From contig NZ_RXLQ01000001.1 of the NCBI RefSeq assembly GCF_003953935.1, forward strand, positions 284,121 to 348,120: 64,000 bases of DNA, given 5' to 3'. Source of the DNA: Massilia atriviolacea (lineage in GTDB: Bacteria > Pseudomonadota > Gammaproteobacteria > Burkholderiales > Burkholderiaceae_D). Position 1 is the first letter of the stretch. Each line of letters opens with the position of its first letter. The notes under the pieces were generated by a model. That model saw only the letters and a program-made list of their open reading frames with translations. It did not search any database and was not told the DNA's origin. The position numbers and the translations under genes are program-made. This document shows positions 4,744-52,397 of this stretch, piece by piece.

Positions 4744-6342
4744 ATGTTATCCACAGCAAATATCACGATGCAGTTCGGCGCCAAGCCGCTGTTTGAGAAC
4801 ATCTCCGTCAAATTTGGCGACGGCAATCGCTACGGCCTGATCGGCGCCAACGGCTGCGGCAAGTCGACCTTCATGAAGATCCTCGGCGGCGACCTCGAGC
4901 CGTCGGCCGGCACCGTCATGCTCGATCCGAACGAGCGCCTCGGCAAGCTGCGCCAGGACCAGTTCGCCTTCGAAGAAATGCGCGTGCTGGACGTGGTGAT
5001 GATGGGCCACACCGAGCTGTGGAACGCCATCTCCGAGCGCGACGCCATCTACGCCAATCCGGACGCGACCGACGACGACTACATGCACGCGGCCGAGCTC
5101 GAAAGCAAGGTTGCCGAATACGACGGCTACTCGGCCGAAGCGCGCGCCGGCGAACTGCTGCTCGGCGCCGGCGTCTCGATCGACCAGCACCAGGGCCCGA
5201 TGAGCGCCGTGGCGCCGGGCTGGAAGCTGCGCGTGCTGCTGGCCCAGGCCCTGTTCTCGAATCCGGACATCCTGCTGCTCGACGAGCCGACCAACAACCT
5301 GGACATCAACACGATTCGCTGGCTCGAAGACGTGCTCAACGACCGCAATTCGACCATGGTCATCATTTCCCACGATCGCCACTTCCTGAACCAGGTGTGC
5401 ACCCACGTGGCCGACATGGACTACGGCACCCTCAAGGTGTATCCGGGCAATTACGACGAGTACATGTTCGCCTCGACCCAGGCGCGCAACCAGCAACTGG
5501 CCAACAACGCCAAGGCCAAGGAAAAAGTCGCCGAGCTGCAAGACTTCGTGCGCCGCTTCGCCGCCAACAAATCCAAGGCGCGCCAGGCAACGTCCCGCGC
5601 CAAGCAGATCGAGAAGATCAAGGTCGACGACATCAAGCCGTCGTCGCGCGCCTATCCATTCGTGCGCTTCGAAGCCGAGAAGAAATTGCACCGCCTGGCG
5701 GTGGAAGTCGAAGGCATTTCCAAGAAGTACGACCGCCAGCTGTTCAAGAATTTCAGCATCATGGTCGAAGCGGGCGAGCGCATCGCCATCATCGGCGCCA
5801 ACGGCGCCGGCAAGACCACCTTGCTGCGCTCGATCGGCGCCGAACTGACCGGCCTGCAGCCGGACACCGGCCGCGTCAAGTGGGCGGAAAACGCCAACGT
5901 CGGCTACATGCCGCAAGATCCGACCGAAGACTTCGCCAGCGATGCCGTCCTGACCGACTGGATCGGCCAGTGGACCAAGGAAGGCGACGACGACCAGGCT
6001 GTGCGCTCGATCCTCGGCCGCCTGCTGTTCGGCGGCGACGACGTGAAGAAATCGGTGCGCGTGCTGTCCGGCGGTGAAAAAGGCCGCATGATGTACGGCA
6101 AGCTGATGCTCGGCCGTCACAACGTCATGCTGCTCGACGAGCCGACCAACCACATGGACATGGAATCGATCGAGTCGCTCAACATCGCACTCGAAAAATA
6201 CACCGGCACCCTGATTTTCGTGTCGCACGATCGCGAATTCGTCTCGTCGCTGGCCGACCGCATCCTCGAAATCAAGGAAAACGAAATCGTCGATTTCCGT
6301 GGCAACTACGAGGATTATCTGAAGAGCCAGGGCATCGACTAA
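4744..6342 (+). CDS. ybiT: ABC-F family ATPase YbiT
   Basis: A 532-residue cytoplasmic protein with two ABC ATPase domains joined by the ABC-F linker (P-site tRNA interaction motif; [13 protein letters not shown] through the charged helices to about residue 310). It aligns closely by eye with E. coli YbiT (530 aa), from the N-terminal [18 protein letters not shown] to the C-terminal [13 protein letters not shown]. Domain 1 has Walker [10 protein letters not shown] and Walker [12 protein letters not shown]; its signature is replaced by VAPGWKLR, which is normal for YbiT. Domain 2 has [17 protein letters not shown] and [14 protein letters not shown] proteins act on ribosomes, modulating translation rather than transport. 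Upstream of the ATG there is only an A-rich tract and no strong ribosome site. A stem-loop follows the stop. Confidence 0.95.
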
Positions 6343-48341: not shown

Positions 48342-49115
48342 TTGAAGAGATTGACCATTTTGGCCGCCGCTTTGCTGTTGGCCGGCGCCGGCGCGGCGCA
48401 GGCTGCGATTCCCGTGTACGGCTTCATCGTCAAGAACAGCTATCCGCACGATCCGGACGCGTTCACCCAGGGCTTGTTCTATAGCGACGGCGTTTTGTAC
48501 GAAAGCACCGGCCTGAACGGCAAGTCCTCGGTCCGCAAGACCGACCTGAAAACCGGCAAGGTGCTGATGAAGACCGATATCGCGGCCGACTACTTTGCGG
48601 AAGGCATTACCGATGTCGGCAACACCATCGTCGGCCTGACCTGGACCTCGCGCGTCGGCTTCGTGTTCGACAAGGCAACGCTGAAGATGAAGCAGACGTT
48701 TTCGTATCCCGGCGAAGGCTGGGGGCTGGCCAGCAACGGCAGCGATGTGTTCATGAGCGACGGCACCGCCGTCATTCGCGTGCTCAATCCCGGGACGCTG
48801 GCGGAAGTGCGCCGCATCCAGGTCACGGCCGAGGGCAAGCCGATCGACCGCCTTAACGAAATGGAATGGATCGACGGCGAGCTGTATGCGAATGTGTGGG
48901 GTTCGGACGTGATCGCGCGCATCGACCCCGCCAGCGGCAAGGTGGTCGGCTGGATCGACCTGGCCGGCCTGCTGGACGAAAAAAGCCGCGCCGGCGCGAC
49001 GGTCGATGTCCTCAACGGCATCGCCTACGACAGCAAGAAAAAGCGCCTGTTCGTCACCGGCAAGCTGTGGCCGCGGCTGTTCGAGATCGAACTGGTGCGG
49101 CGCCAGGCGCGCTGA
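48342..49115 (+). CDS. Glutaminyl-peptide cyclotransferase (bacterial, beta-propeller type)
   Basis: A 257-residue exported enzyme with a TTG start and a signal peptide (LTILAAALLLAGAGAAQA). The mature part is the five-bladed propeller of plant/bacterial glutaminyl cyclase: YPHDPDAFTQGLFYSDGVLYESTG, LTWTSRVGFVFDKATL, GEGWGLASNGSDVFMSDG, INxLNEMEWI-like (RLNEMEWIDGELYANVWGSD) and VLNGIAYDSKKKRLFVTGKLWPRLFEI. The NEMEW and NGIAYD motifs carry the acidic catalytic residues. It turns N-terminal Gln into pyroglutamate on periplasmic peptides or proteins. It is convergent with the MNIO gene. Confidence 0.92.
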   Translation: MKRLTILAAALLLAGAGAAQAAIPVYGFIVKNSYPHDPDAFTQGLFYSDGVLYESTGLNGKSSVRKTDLKTGKVLMKTDIAADYFAEGITDVGNTIVGLTWTSRVGFVFDKATLKMKQTFSYPGEGWGLASNGSDVFMSDGTAVIRVLNPGTLAEVRRIQVTAEGKPIDRLNEMEWIDGELYANVWGSDVIARIDPASGKVVGWIDLAGLLDEKSRAGATVDVLNGIAYDSKKKRLFVTGKLWPRLFEIELVRRQAR

Positions 49116-49127
49116 GGCCGGCGCCCG

Positions 49128-50564
49128 TCAGCGGCCTTGCGGCTCGATGGTCAGCGCAAATTCGCCATGGTCGGCAAAATCGGGCATGCGCGCGTGGCGC
49201 AGGGCCATCAGCAGGGGCAGCGGCGAACAGGTGAAGCGCACGGTTTTCCGCTGCGCGTACATGCGCACCTGGTGCGACGCCAGTTCGAAGGCCAGCACCT
49301 CGCCCAGATGCGGTATCGGGAGCGCCTGGGCGCGCAGGAACTCGGCGAAATTGAGCGCTTCCTCGGTCGCAAACGGCTCGGGCGGGCGGGTTTTCCAGAA
49401 TGCCCGCAGCAGCGACAAAAAGGCCGGCTCGCCCAGGCTCAGGACGATCAGGCGGTAACTGAGCGTCATCGAATCGACCACGGTCCCGCTGCGCACCGCC
49501 GCGACCAGCTGGCGCAATACCGCCACGCCATTGTCGGCGTCGAATATCGGCGCAAACGGCGCGTCCGGATCGCGTTCCAGCACGCGCGCGGCCAGCGCGC
49601 GTTCCCATTCGACCGGCGACGGCAAGGCTGTAGCGCAGGGCGCGGGGGGGCAGCCTGTCGCGCGTGGGGCGCATGCCACCTGCAGCGTCTTCTTGCGCGA
49701 GTCCCACAGGCGGCGCAGGTCGAGCAGTTGCGCCGTCAACTGGCCCTGGGCGATGTCGCGCGCCGGCATATAGGCGGGAACGATTTCGAAGATCAGCGCC
49801 TTCACGTTGGGCAGCCGTGGCAGCACCGCCTGCGCCAATTGCATCAGCTCCGGCGGCACCAGTCCGGAATGGGCGTCGAGATAATAGCCGTCGAGATAGT
49901 CGCCGCCGGCCAGATGGACTTCGCACACGCGTTCGAGCGGCATGTCGTCGAGCGCGGCCAGCACGCCCTGGCGGCCATTGCGCTCGTTGCACCACAGATT
50001 ATGCAAGTCGAGCAGGATGGCGCAATCGGCTTCCTCGGCGATCGCCCCGAAAAACGCGCCGTCCGACATTTCGCCAGGCACCGGGCGCAGGTAGTTGACG
50101 CCGGTTTCGAACGCGAACGGCACCGGCAACTGCCTGCTCAAGGCGCGGATATTGGCCGCCGCCAGCGCCACGGTGTGCGCGCTTTGCAGCGGAGGCAGCA
50201 AAAAGCCGGTATTGAAAACGCCGCCGGCGCCGTCGACGCGCGAAAAACTCAGGTGCTCGCTGGCCCAGGAAGCGTCCAGCGCCTCGATGACATCGACGAA
50301 CAGCGCCACCTGGTCCGGCTCGGGCGCCACGCTGCCGCCGACCGGGAATCCCACGCCATGCACGAGTTTCGGATGCGGATCGGCGCACAGCTGCGCCAGT
50401 GCGGCGCCATTGACGGCGTACGGCACGCCGGCGGCCGCCGATTTGAACCACAGCGGCTGGGGCTCGATTTCGATCACGTCGATCAGGTCGTGCGCGGCTT
50501 CGATGAACGCTTCGAGGCCGGGCAGGCAGACCATGCCGACGCCTGACTCGGGCAGCTCGCGCAT
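49128..50564 (-). CDS. MNIO (DUF692) enzyme fused to a DUF2063-like partner domain
   Basis: A 478-residue protein. Residues 1 to about 280 form a DUF692 TIM barrel, the multinuclear non-heme iron oxidative (MNIO) fold, with candidate metal ligands in HGVGFPVGGS, SEHLSFSR, FETGVNYLRP, LLDLHNLWCNE, EVHLAGGDYLDGYY and LDAHSG. Several deviate from the common forms (SDHL, ENP, LIEWD), suggesting a subclass. Residues about 310 to 478 resemble the DUF2063/BufC-type partner domain (FLRAQALPIPHLGEVLAFELASHQ). MNIOs modify Cys or other residues of ribosomal peptides. The ATG at 50564 is 1 base after the stop of the small Cys-bearing protein, its likely partner or substrate. Confidence 0.85.
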   Translation of the reverse strand: MRELPESGVGMVCLPGLEAFIEAAHDLIDVIEIEPQPLWFKSAAAGVPYAVNGAALAQLCADPHPKLVHGVGFPVGGSVAPEPDQVALFVDVIEALDASWASEHLSFSRVDGAGGVFNTGFLLPPLQSAHTVALAAANIRALSRQLPVPFAFETGVNYLRPVPGEMSDGAFFGAIAEEADCAILLDLHNLWCNERNGRQGVLAALDDMPLERVCEVHLAGGDYLDGYYLDAHSGLVPPELMQLAQAVLPRLPNVKALIFEIVPAYMPARDIAQGQLTAQLLDLRRLWDSRKKTLQVACAPRATGCPPAPCATALPSPVEWERALAARVLERDPDAPFAPIFDADNGVAVLRQLVAAVRSGTVVDSMTLSYRLIVLSLGEPAFLSLLRAFWKTRPPEPFATEEALNFAEFLRAQALPIPHLGEVLAFELASHQVRMYAQRKTVRFTCSPLPLLMALRHARMPDFADHGEFALTIEPQGR

Positions 50565-50565
50565 G

Positions 50566-50826
50566 TCAGGGCGAAAGCGGGTCTTGCGCCAGCCCGCTTG
50601 CCTGCACCGACAAGCTGGCATCGACGACGAAACGGCGCTGGATATCGTAGCGGATATCGAAGCCCGAGGTGCAGGCCGGGCAGCCGAGCTGCCCGAGCAG
50701 CTCTTTCTGGACGCGCTGGAACTGGTCCAGGTCGAAGTAGACCTGGCTCGGCAGCGAAACGCTGACGGCCCGGGTGGCGGGCTGTGCAGCCAGGGTGGTA
50801 CGCAGATCGACGGCGTTGCTATCCAT
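50566..50826 (-). CDS. Small Cys-motif protein, candidate MNIO substrate or partner
   Basis: An 86-residue protein with no signal peptide. The N-terminal 30 residues are polar, followed by a helix (VYFDLDQFQRVQKELLGQL), a CxxC motif in LGCPACTSGFDIRYDIQ, a strand RRFVVDASLSV and a short tail. It is co-translated with the MNIO enzyme (stop and start separated by 1 base) and has AGGAG 9 bases before its ATG. Known MNIO substrates are small Cys-containing peptides encoded next to the enzyme, which makes this a candidate precursor; a structural partner or recognition protein is the alternative. I know of no characterised homologue. Confidence 0.75.
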   Translation of the reverse strand: MDSNAVDLRTTLAAQPATRAVSVSLPSQVYFDLDQFQRVQKELLGQLGCPACTSGFDIRYDIQRRFVVDASLSVQASGLAQDPLSP

Positions 50827-51365
50827 GACGTGGCGCTCCTGTGGTATGGGTGATTGGAAAGTTTCCTCGGGAAATGCGTCGCATTGTCCCCGGCAGCGCC
50901 GTCCCAGGCGTTAATGCTGAGGCTGTCTGCTGCCTAAAGTATAGGCATCCCCCTTCACCCAACCGGCATCATGTGCACGGACTTTGCGCGGCATCAAAGG
51001 CTGGTGCGGAACGTCTTTGATGCGCGACACTTTGGCTGCAGTTAGCGATGCTGGCCGGTGTCGCGCTTGACCGAGGCGCGCCGCAGGACCGCCCAGGCCG
51101 GCACGCCTGGCCCAGTGTGAGGCTGTTGGTGCTGCCGAGGTCGCTTCCGACGATCTTTGCGCCTGTCCTTCGAACCTTTCAACCCAGTACGAACAGCTGA
51201 AAACGCTGTCCGATGTCGTGCGCAAACGGCCAGCTTGGGGCCGCGCCGCGCCCTGAGATGGCGAAATTGCAATTATTTTGCGACACCGTGAGTATTGGAT
51301 AGAATTTCTTCGTGTATTTATGTCACGCTGGTGTTGCTGCGCGGATCATCCGCGAGGAGGGCGCG
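50827..51365. other. Divergent region between MNIO pair and binding-protein gene
   Basis: About 540 bases without a supported gene; the minus frame 50911-51225 has a biased, repeat-like translation and no ribosome site. It contains a perfect 9-base inverted repeat (GCATCAAAG 50991-50999, CTTTGATGC 51015-51023) with a 15-base loop, extendable by three more pairs past one bulged base. A plus-strand promoter for the binding-protein gene is listed separately. Confidence 0.5.
51278..51305 (+). promoter_or_regulatory. Putative promoter of binding-protein/kinase operon
   Basis: TTGCGA (51278-51283) and TAGAAT (51300-51305) are separated by 16 bases; five of six bases match in the -10 and four of six in the -35 element. 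The predicted start near 51312 leaves a leader of about 55 bases to the ATG at 51366, which has GAGGAGG before it. Confidence 0.4.
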
Positions 51366-52397
51366 ATGGCGGGAACAGTTCCGACGCACGTTTACCGGTA
51401 TGCGCTGGCAGCGTTGCTGGCGCTCGTCCTGGCGGGAACGCTGTGGCTGTGGCTGCGCCAGCCGCGCGCGTCCGGCCACCCGCCCGCCGCATATACGCTG
51501 ACCATCGCGTCGAACTCGGCGTACGTCGGCACCTGCCCCGTCACGGTGGCCTTCGGCAGCGGGTATTTCAGGCAGGAGGGGGTGGCGGCCCGGCTGCAGA
51601 CCCACCTGACCGGAAAAGGGGCGCTGGCGGCGGCGCTGTCCGGACAGGCCGACCTGGCGACGACCGCCGATATCCCGATCATGTTCGCGGCCATGCAAAA
51701 CATGCCGGTGTCGGTGGTGGCGACCTTTTTCAAGACCGAACACGATCACGGCCTGGTGGCGCGGCGCGACAGCGGGATCGCCAGCCTGGCCGACCTGAGA
51801 GGCAAGCGGATCGGCGTCACCCTGGGCACCTCGGCCCATTTCGTGCTCGACGGTTTCCTCAGCCGCCAGCATCTGGCTGCGCACCAGGTGACGGTGGTCG
51901 ACATGAAGCCGGAACGCTTCGCCGCCGCGCTCGGCGCCGGCGAGGTCGATGCCGTGTCGACCTGGGAACCCTTCCTCGACTCGCTGCTGGGCGCGCTGGG
52001 CAAGAACGGCGCGCTGTTCCATGCGGACGACATCTACGAAATCCCCTACAGCCTGGCCGGCAGCCGTGCCTACGTCGCCGCCAACCCGGAGTTGATGCGG
52101 CGCGTCTTGCGCGCCCTGCAGCACGGCGTGCGCGATTGCCGCGAACGGCCCGAGCAGGCGCGCGCCGTGATGGGCGCCGTGCTGGGCACCGACGGCGGCG
52201 CGTGGCGCGCGCGCTGGCCGCGCCCGGGCTTCAGGCTGACGCTCGACCAGGGCTTGATCCTGGCGCTCGAGGACCAGTCGCGCTGGGCCGTCGCGAACGG
52301 GCTGGCCGCGCCCGGCGAGACGCCGAATTTCCTCGACAATATGTATCTCGACGCCCTGGTCCAGGTGGCCCCAGCGGCGGTCACCGTGGTTCGCTGA
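51366..52397 (+). CDS. NitT/TauT-type substrate-binding protein, membrane-anchored
   Basis: A 343-residue periplasmic binding protein of the SsuA/NMT1-like type. The start at ATG 51366 is supported by GAGGAGG. The N-terminus YALAALLALVLAGTLWLWLRQP looks like an uncleaved anchor rather than a lipobox. Fold markers are LTIASNSAYVGTCPVTVAFGSGYFRQEG, LAAALSGQADLATTADIPIMFAAMQN, LADLRGKRIGVTLGTSAHFVLDGFL, GEVDAVSTWEPFLDSL and NFLDNMYLDAL. No permease or ATPase gene is near; instead two hybrid kinases follow (first 10 bases away). It probably reports ligand to the kinase rather than feeding a transporter. Confidence 0.87.
   Translation: MAGTVPTHVYRYALAALLALVLAGTLWLWLRQPRASGHPPAAYTLTIASNSAYVGTCPVTVAFGSGYFRQEGVAARLQTHLTGKGALAAALSGQADLATTADIPIMFAAMQNMPVSVVATFFKTEHDHGLVARRDSGIASLADLRGKRIGVTLGTSAHFVLDGFLSRQHLAAHQVTVVDMKPERFAAALGAGEVDAVSTWEPFLDSLLGALGKNGALFHADDIYEIPYSLAGSRAYVAANPELMRRVLRALQHGVRDCRERPEQARAVMGAVLGTDGGAWRARWPRPGFRLTLDQGLILALEDQSRWAVANGLAAPGETPNFLDNMYLDALVQVAPAAVTVVR

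Follow-up and report, generated by a model that had tools for sequence, protein, structure and literature searches.

Small cysteine-loop proteins encoded beside a fused MNIO enzyme: a conserved enzyme-substrate candidate from Massilia atriviolacea

The window, a stretch of 64,000 nucleotides from the 7.36 Mb genome of Massilia atriviolacea, carries on its minus strand two genes encoding a small cysteine-containing protein and an MNIO enzyme. The small gene (50566..50826; 86 aa) begins with an ATG preceded by AGGAG 9 bases upstream, and the enzyme gene lies directly 3' of it on the same strand, running from an ATG at 50564 to its stop at 49128 and encoding 478 aa that begin with MRELPESG. A single base separates the small gene (end 50566) from the enzyme gene (start 50564), in agreement with the preliminary description of this locus. 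The mechanically called ORF of the enzyme begins at 50621 and would overlap the small gene, but close enzyme relatives align from the internal ATG at 50564, not from 50621. The flanking long genes, encoding a glutamine cyclotransferase (48342-49115) and an NMT1-type binding protein (51312-52397), are both on the opposite strand, so the pair stands alone. The closest named enzymes are those of Massilia rubra, M. aquatica and M. mucilaginosa (87-88% identity), and a second MNIO is encoded elsewhere in the genome beside a DUF2282 bufferin-type precursor. The features are as follows.

50566..50826, minus strand: small protein, putative substrate (adjamnio-7 type), 86 aa, no signal peptide seen
50662..50685, minus strand: GCPACTSG loop, residues 48-55, predicted loop with invariant G48, C52, S54 and G55
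50671-50673, minus strand: Cys52 codon, proposed target, part of the GCPACTSG loop
49128..50564, minus strand: MNIO enzyme with fused partner domain, 478 aa, stop included
49689..50564, minus strand: MNIO barrel, residues 1-292
49131..49616, minus strand: DUF2063-like helical partner domain and short strand-helix-strand tail, residues 317-478

The enzyme matches PF05114 at residues 53-258 (127.1 bits against a cut-off of 25; E 9.2e-37), and the same family is found at E 0.01 in all 38 rows of the enzyme alignment (A1). Its predicted structure is the MbnB/TglH barrel fold with iron-binding residues, and the metal-site residues are conserved, with H69, H104, E153, H188, N189, H217, D230, H232 and E260 invariant in every row of A1. 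The preliminary description had regarded several metal-ligand motifs as unusual, a view that survives only in part: SEHL also occurs in this genome's own bufferin-type MNIO and DLHN in TglH, while FETG and DAHSG do differ from the bufferin-type MNIO and TglH comparators, although FEN replaces FET/VET in 6 of the 38 aligned relatives.

The barrel and a DUF2063-like partner domain form one chain. The direct match of residues 320-410 to PF09836 (DUF2063) is below threshold (19.1 bits; cut-off 27.2), and this family is found at E 0.01 in 7 of the 38 A1 rows. Profile-profile comparison with partner proteins (hhalign) gave a probability of 93.1% (score 52.9; P 3.3e-7), or 91.9% under other settings (score 41.6; P 9e-8), against scores of 13.0 for a reversed control and 28.3 for the best of 40 block shuffles. 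The domain thus falls short of PME-type 1, which requires PF09836 over its cut-off, and shows the DUF2063-like kinship of PME-type 2. In the structure model of the enzyme, the helical partner domain is followed only by a strand-helix-strand element (440-473). Antoine et al. (2025; PMC12452194) state that a complete RRE is absent from many PME-type 2 proteins and that partners of this type are encoded by ten MNIO clusters circled in Fig. 5. Fusion of a partner-like domain, as initially described, is upheld, but its presentation as a special trait was overstated because a DUF2063 fusion is also found in this genome's bufferin MNIO. That second pair (locus L001; contig 10 of the M. atriviolacea assembly, G000) resembles the present one in its MNIO-DUF2063 chain and in the small Cys protein encoded upstream, but its enzyme scores far higher against both PF05114 (330.3 versus 127.1 bits) and PF09836 (72.1 versus 19.1), and its precursor, unlike the small protein studied here, belongs to DUF2282 and has an N-terminal signal-like stretch (judged by eye). 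In other genomes of the genus, too, DUF2063 is seen to be preceded by an in-frame continuation of 305-322 residues.

Other known systems differ in how the partner is provided. TglI of the TglH-TglI system (pearlin, 3-thiaglutamate; 23% identity) is a separate chain, unlike the fused partner here. The Tgl precursor is modified at a C-terminal Cys, whereas the Cys proposed as target here lies in an internal loop. MovX, from a methanobactin-like system of Vibrio, is also a single-chain fusion: according to the Discussion of PMC12452194, this MNIO carries an additional domain that may take over the task of the partner. That domain is a winged helix, in contrast to the DUF2063-like domain of the present enzyme.

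The shared enzyme superfamily would also allow a copper peptide system of the bufferin or methanobactin type, a reading that we consider extremely improbable. The enzyme reaches 99.9 bits against the NCBIfam BufB model (cut-off 310) and 10.7 against MbnB (cut-off 325), and membership of either family fails on these cut-offs; the preliminary description had likewise set both aside. The Sec signal peptide expected of a bufferin precursor is not seen in the small protein, neither a DUF2282 nor an EGKCG precursor is present, and a separate bufferin pair exists in the same genome. The enzyme also stays below the cut-offs for HvfB (73.5 versus 360), ChrH of chryseobasin (44.6 versus 600) and ApyH of aminopyruvatide (93.7 versus 400).

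The small protein matches no Pfam or NCBIfam family over cut-off. No signal peptide is seen in it on inspection by eye, as stated at the outset, and a crude hydrophobicity screen flags only 1 of 58 relatives. Its structure model (pLDDT 76.7) comprises a strand, a helix, a loop carrying the motif and further strands, with the loop predicted between helix 33-47 and strand 57-62, and comparison of this model with solved folds gave no convincing match. Relatives were collected through the enzyme, the best 80 of 116 from a scan of the collection being kept. Since one of two peptide patterns was required of every relative, the 80 are not a random sample; the small-protein profile was begun from nine members and enlarged on the same 80 loci. 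Small proteins were found at 75 of these loci; their loop motif is G-[C/H]-x-x-C-x-S-G, realised in the window as GCPACTSG (residues 48-55). Of the 75 loci, 67 have one or more CxxC domains, four have HxxC alone and four have neither (L018, L038, L060 and L082). The second Cys of the motif is kept in 73 of the 75, being lost only in L018 and L038, and G48, C52, S54 and G55 are invariant in all 52 rows of the small-protein alignment A2, which comprises the window and 51 of the 58 single-domain loci. Seven loci are omitted from A2: L018 and L082, which deviate from the motif, and L046, L047, L048, L070 and L090. L038 and L052 are excluded from the 58 single-domain members. Five of these 58 (L034, L054, L060, L062 and L096) possess a single Cys, which is always the second Cys of the motif. 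Its retention in 73 of 75 loci and its standing as the sole Cys in five members make this residue, Cys52 in the window, the likeliest modification target as judged from sequence.

The pairing of enzyme and small protein is real and wide. At the 75 loci the small protein is encoded directly upstream on the same strand, which bears out the co-occurrence anticipated in the preliminary description and the view of enzyme and CxxC protein as a conserved two-gene unit. The five remaining loci begin at a contig end (L065) or have truncated or out-of-frame enzymes (L069, L076, L083 and L088). The 80 loci span what we assign to Pseudomonadota, Actinomycetota, Acidobacteriota, Bacteroidota, Chloroflexota and Cyanobacteria. 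Whole genomes give the same picture: 35 of 37 contain one small-protein match or two adjacent ones and none elsewhere, the two exceptions being those of L076 and L088, and in all 34 genomes checked beside the source genome the place of the small protein is the enzyme locus. Among 60 genomes (own included), seven encode the enzyme and the same seven the small protein; in a set of 369 from the class, again counting the source genome, the enzyme occurs in two (E 1e-60), both with the small protein, and a third small-protein match is marginal and lacks the enzyme. Pairing in 75 of the 80 relatives and in seven of seven enzyme-bearing genomes out of 60 is not a matter of chance. It had been proposed that the precursor idea would fail if enzymes occurred without an adjacent CxxC protein; this is not the general situation, as 75 of 80 are paired and the other five are at an edge, broken or truncated, yet 8 of the 75 paired loci lack CxxC (four with HxxC, four with neither). 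Among neighbouring ORFs of at least 90 aa no other conserved family was found, and no conserved exporter, protease or regulator gene was found beside the pair. At L083, an 84-aa ORF at about 5240-5494 adjoins the broken cyanobacterial enzyme; it carries SCPACSSG in an otherwise different sequence and looks like a peptide precursor with the same core motif.

These distributions also bear on another possibility, in which the enzyme happens to share its operon with an ordinary CxxC protein, of redox or zinc-binding type, that is never modified. Such a protein would account for the CxxC found at 67 of 75 loci; it would not be expected to lack any orphan copy in the 37 genomes or to retain one Cys only in 5 of 58 single-domain members. 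Moreover, S54 and G55 are as invariant as Cys in A2, and to our knowledge zinc or redox CxxC sites need no such Ser or Gly. This explanation therefore appears quite improbable.

As a place the locus is new, but its family is already published as a putative precursor kind: Antoine et al. (2025; PMC12452194) describe adjamnio-7 as putative CxxC precursors lacking signal peptides beside MNIO cluster 7, with WP_078758616 of Novilysobacter spongiicola as an example. The window pair shares these traits, with a small CxxC protein that lacks a signal peptide and is encoded just before the MNIO gene. One of our loci, L021, comes from Lysobacter spongiicola DSM 21749, which has two MNIO loci. By its name we take this organism to be the same species as N. 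spongiicola. Because its other MNIO locus encodes an EGKCG protein with a signal peptide, the L021 small protein, 44% identical to that of the window in A2, would by elimination be WP_078758616. The available text of PMC12452194 contains no mention that we found of a fused partner or of single-Cys and HxxC members, and no measured modification of, or experiment on, the family was found in the literature searched, where a single paper uses the term adjamnio.

A second published cluster is likely to belong to the same family. Occurrences at the 75 loci are single in 60 and double in 15, with 14 of the doubles in one ORF; these tandem members have 140-161 aa and 4-6 Cys, with CxxCC in 12 of 14. 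Table 2 of PMC12452194 gives adjamnio-IV as 119-146 aa with 5-6 Cys and CxxCC, in the gene order adjamnio-IV then MNIO, which fits the tandem members. That paper lists adjamnio-IV as a separate cluster; our reading is that it is likely a doubled adjamnio-7 domain. The second domains of tandem members (e.g., L072, L085, L091-L093 and L095) often read GHxxCATGCD, in which His replaces the first Cys and an extra Cys stands four residues past the second; a Cys at that later place is also found in the small proteins of M. frigida and of another Massilia genome (G010). Two separate small-protein genes precede one enzyme gene in G227 (L127 and L129) and in L031.

Considered together, the pair is a genuine conserved enzyme-substrate candidate, and the small protein is probably altered by the enzyme. 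The comparisons establish the pairing, the fusion, and the conservation of the loop and of the metal-site residues; what we infer concerns substrate status, the target residue, the chemistry and the function of the pair. It is likely, in our estimation, that the two-gene unit is a self-contained protein-modification pair, including Cys52 oxidation, a cytosolic product and a use in metal binding. The small protein would fold into the predicted strand-helix-loop-strand domain and be bound by the DUF2063-like portion of the fused chain, and the multi-iron barrel would oxidise the second Cys of the G-[C/H]-x-x-C-x-S-G loop, as the genetic evidence suggests. The modified small protein would remain in the cytosol, since no signal peptide is seen and no conserved exporter, protease or regulator gene was found. 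Metal binding by the modified loop would be the likeliest use, by analogy with other cysteine-acting MNIOs, and is the weakest step. A broader formulation is more tentative and to our mind slightly less probable than its negation: the fused MNIO-partner enzyme would act on one loop Cys of a small protein that is folded, cytosolic and subject to neither export nor trimming; instead of a secreted natural product it would yield a permanently modified protein carrying its own metal or redox site, and adjamnio-7 and adjamnio-IV would form one family with single or doubled domains in at least six phyla.

Several observations speak against a simple precursor, namely apparently decaying Massilia copies, L038 (where the enzyme frame is open and the small protein lacks the Cys loop) and conservation of the whole domain. 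Many RiPP precursors consist of a leader and a variable core; conservation over the entire domain of about 55 residues, unlike that layout, counts against the modified-precursor reading. Pairwise dN/dS was calculated for six Massilia copies. With M. frigida left aside, the small gene gives 0.22-0.45 and the enzyme 0.14-0.23, and the small gene is under purifying selection in five of the six copies compared. Pairs that include M. frigida give 0.60-0.93 for the small gene and 0.16-0.20 for the enzyme; against its nearest relative, the enzyme stands at 0.16, still constrained, and the small gene at 0.93, near neutrality, and CPAW replaces CPAC. In G010, which is outside the dN/dS table, the small gene is 56% and the enzyme 82% identical to the window, and the small-gene frame continues past the usual stop with CPAC retained. 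From these values and changes, it appears that in two Massilia lineages the small gene is decaying before the enzyme does, and unless this decay is recent, no other finding weighs as heavily against an enzyme that serves only this substrate.

The same lineages, in which the enzyme is kept, would suit a helper role, in which the small protein supplies the enzyme with iron, electrons or another client and the Cys loop is a metal or thiol site. Conservation over the whole domain and its predicted fold agree with such a role, and the HxxC variants resemble an exchange of one metal ligand for another. However, the helper's role in known MNIO systems is already filled here by the fused DUF2063-like domain, no other conserved client gene was found nearby among ORFs of at least 90 aa, and the single-Cys members leave no thiol pair. 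A helper function is thus unlikely, albeit less so than the other alternatives weighed above, and modification of the small protein remains the preferred reading.

If the small protein is indeed modified, the pair would constitute a minimal MNIO system of one enzyme chain and one substrate, minimal in that no separate partner, exporter or protease gene was found beside it. It would then provide an easy test bed for how an MNIO chooses a Cys in a folded protein, with the single-Cys members pointing to one residue, the second Cys, and it would indicate that the use of MNIO chemistry extends beyond exported peptides to the interior of the cell. To the published family the present analysis adds a partner domain within the enzyme chain, linkage strictly at one place, a set of single-Cys members that points to the second Cys and the likely union of adjamnio-7 and adjamnio-IV; the two Massilia copies that appear to be decaying call for caution.

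A further feature concerns the beginning of some small proteins. The string LNPQPLPP, not found in the literature searched, opens those of unrelated bacteria (at about L058:9752, L064:9749, L067:1659 and L087:3180) and also occurs in the linker of L051 (9731) and, as the variant NPQPDPP, in that of L084 (7400); L086 has LNTQPIPP. Within the roughly 1.77 Mb of DNA scanned the motif is confined to these small proteins, and it could be a recognition tag.
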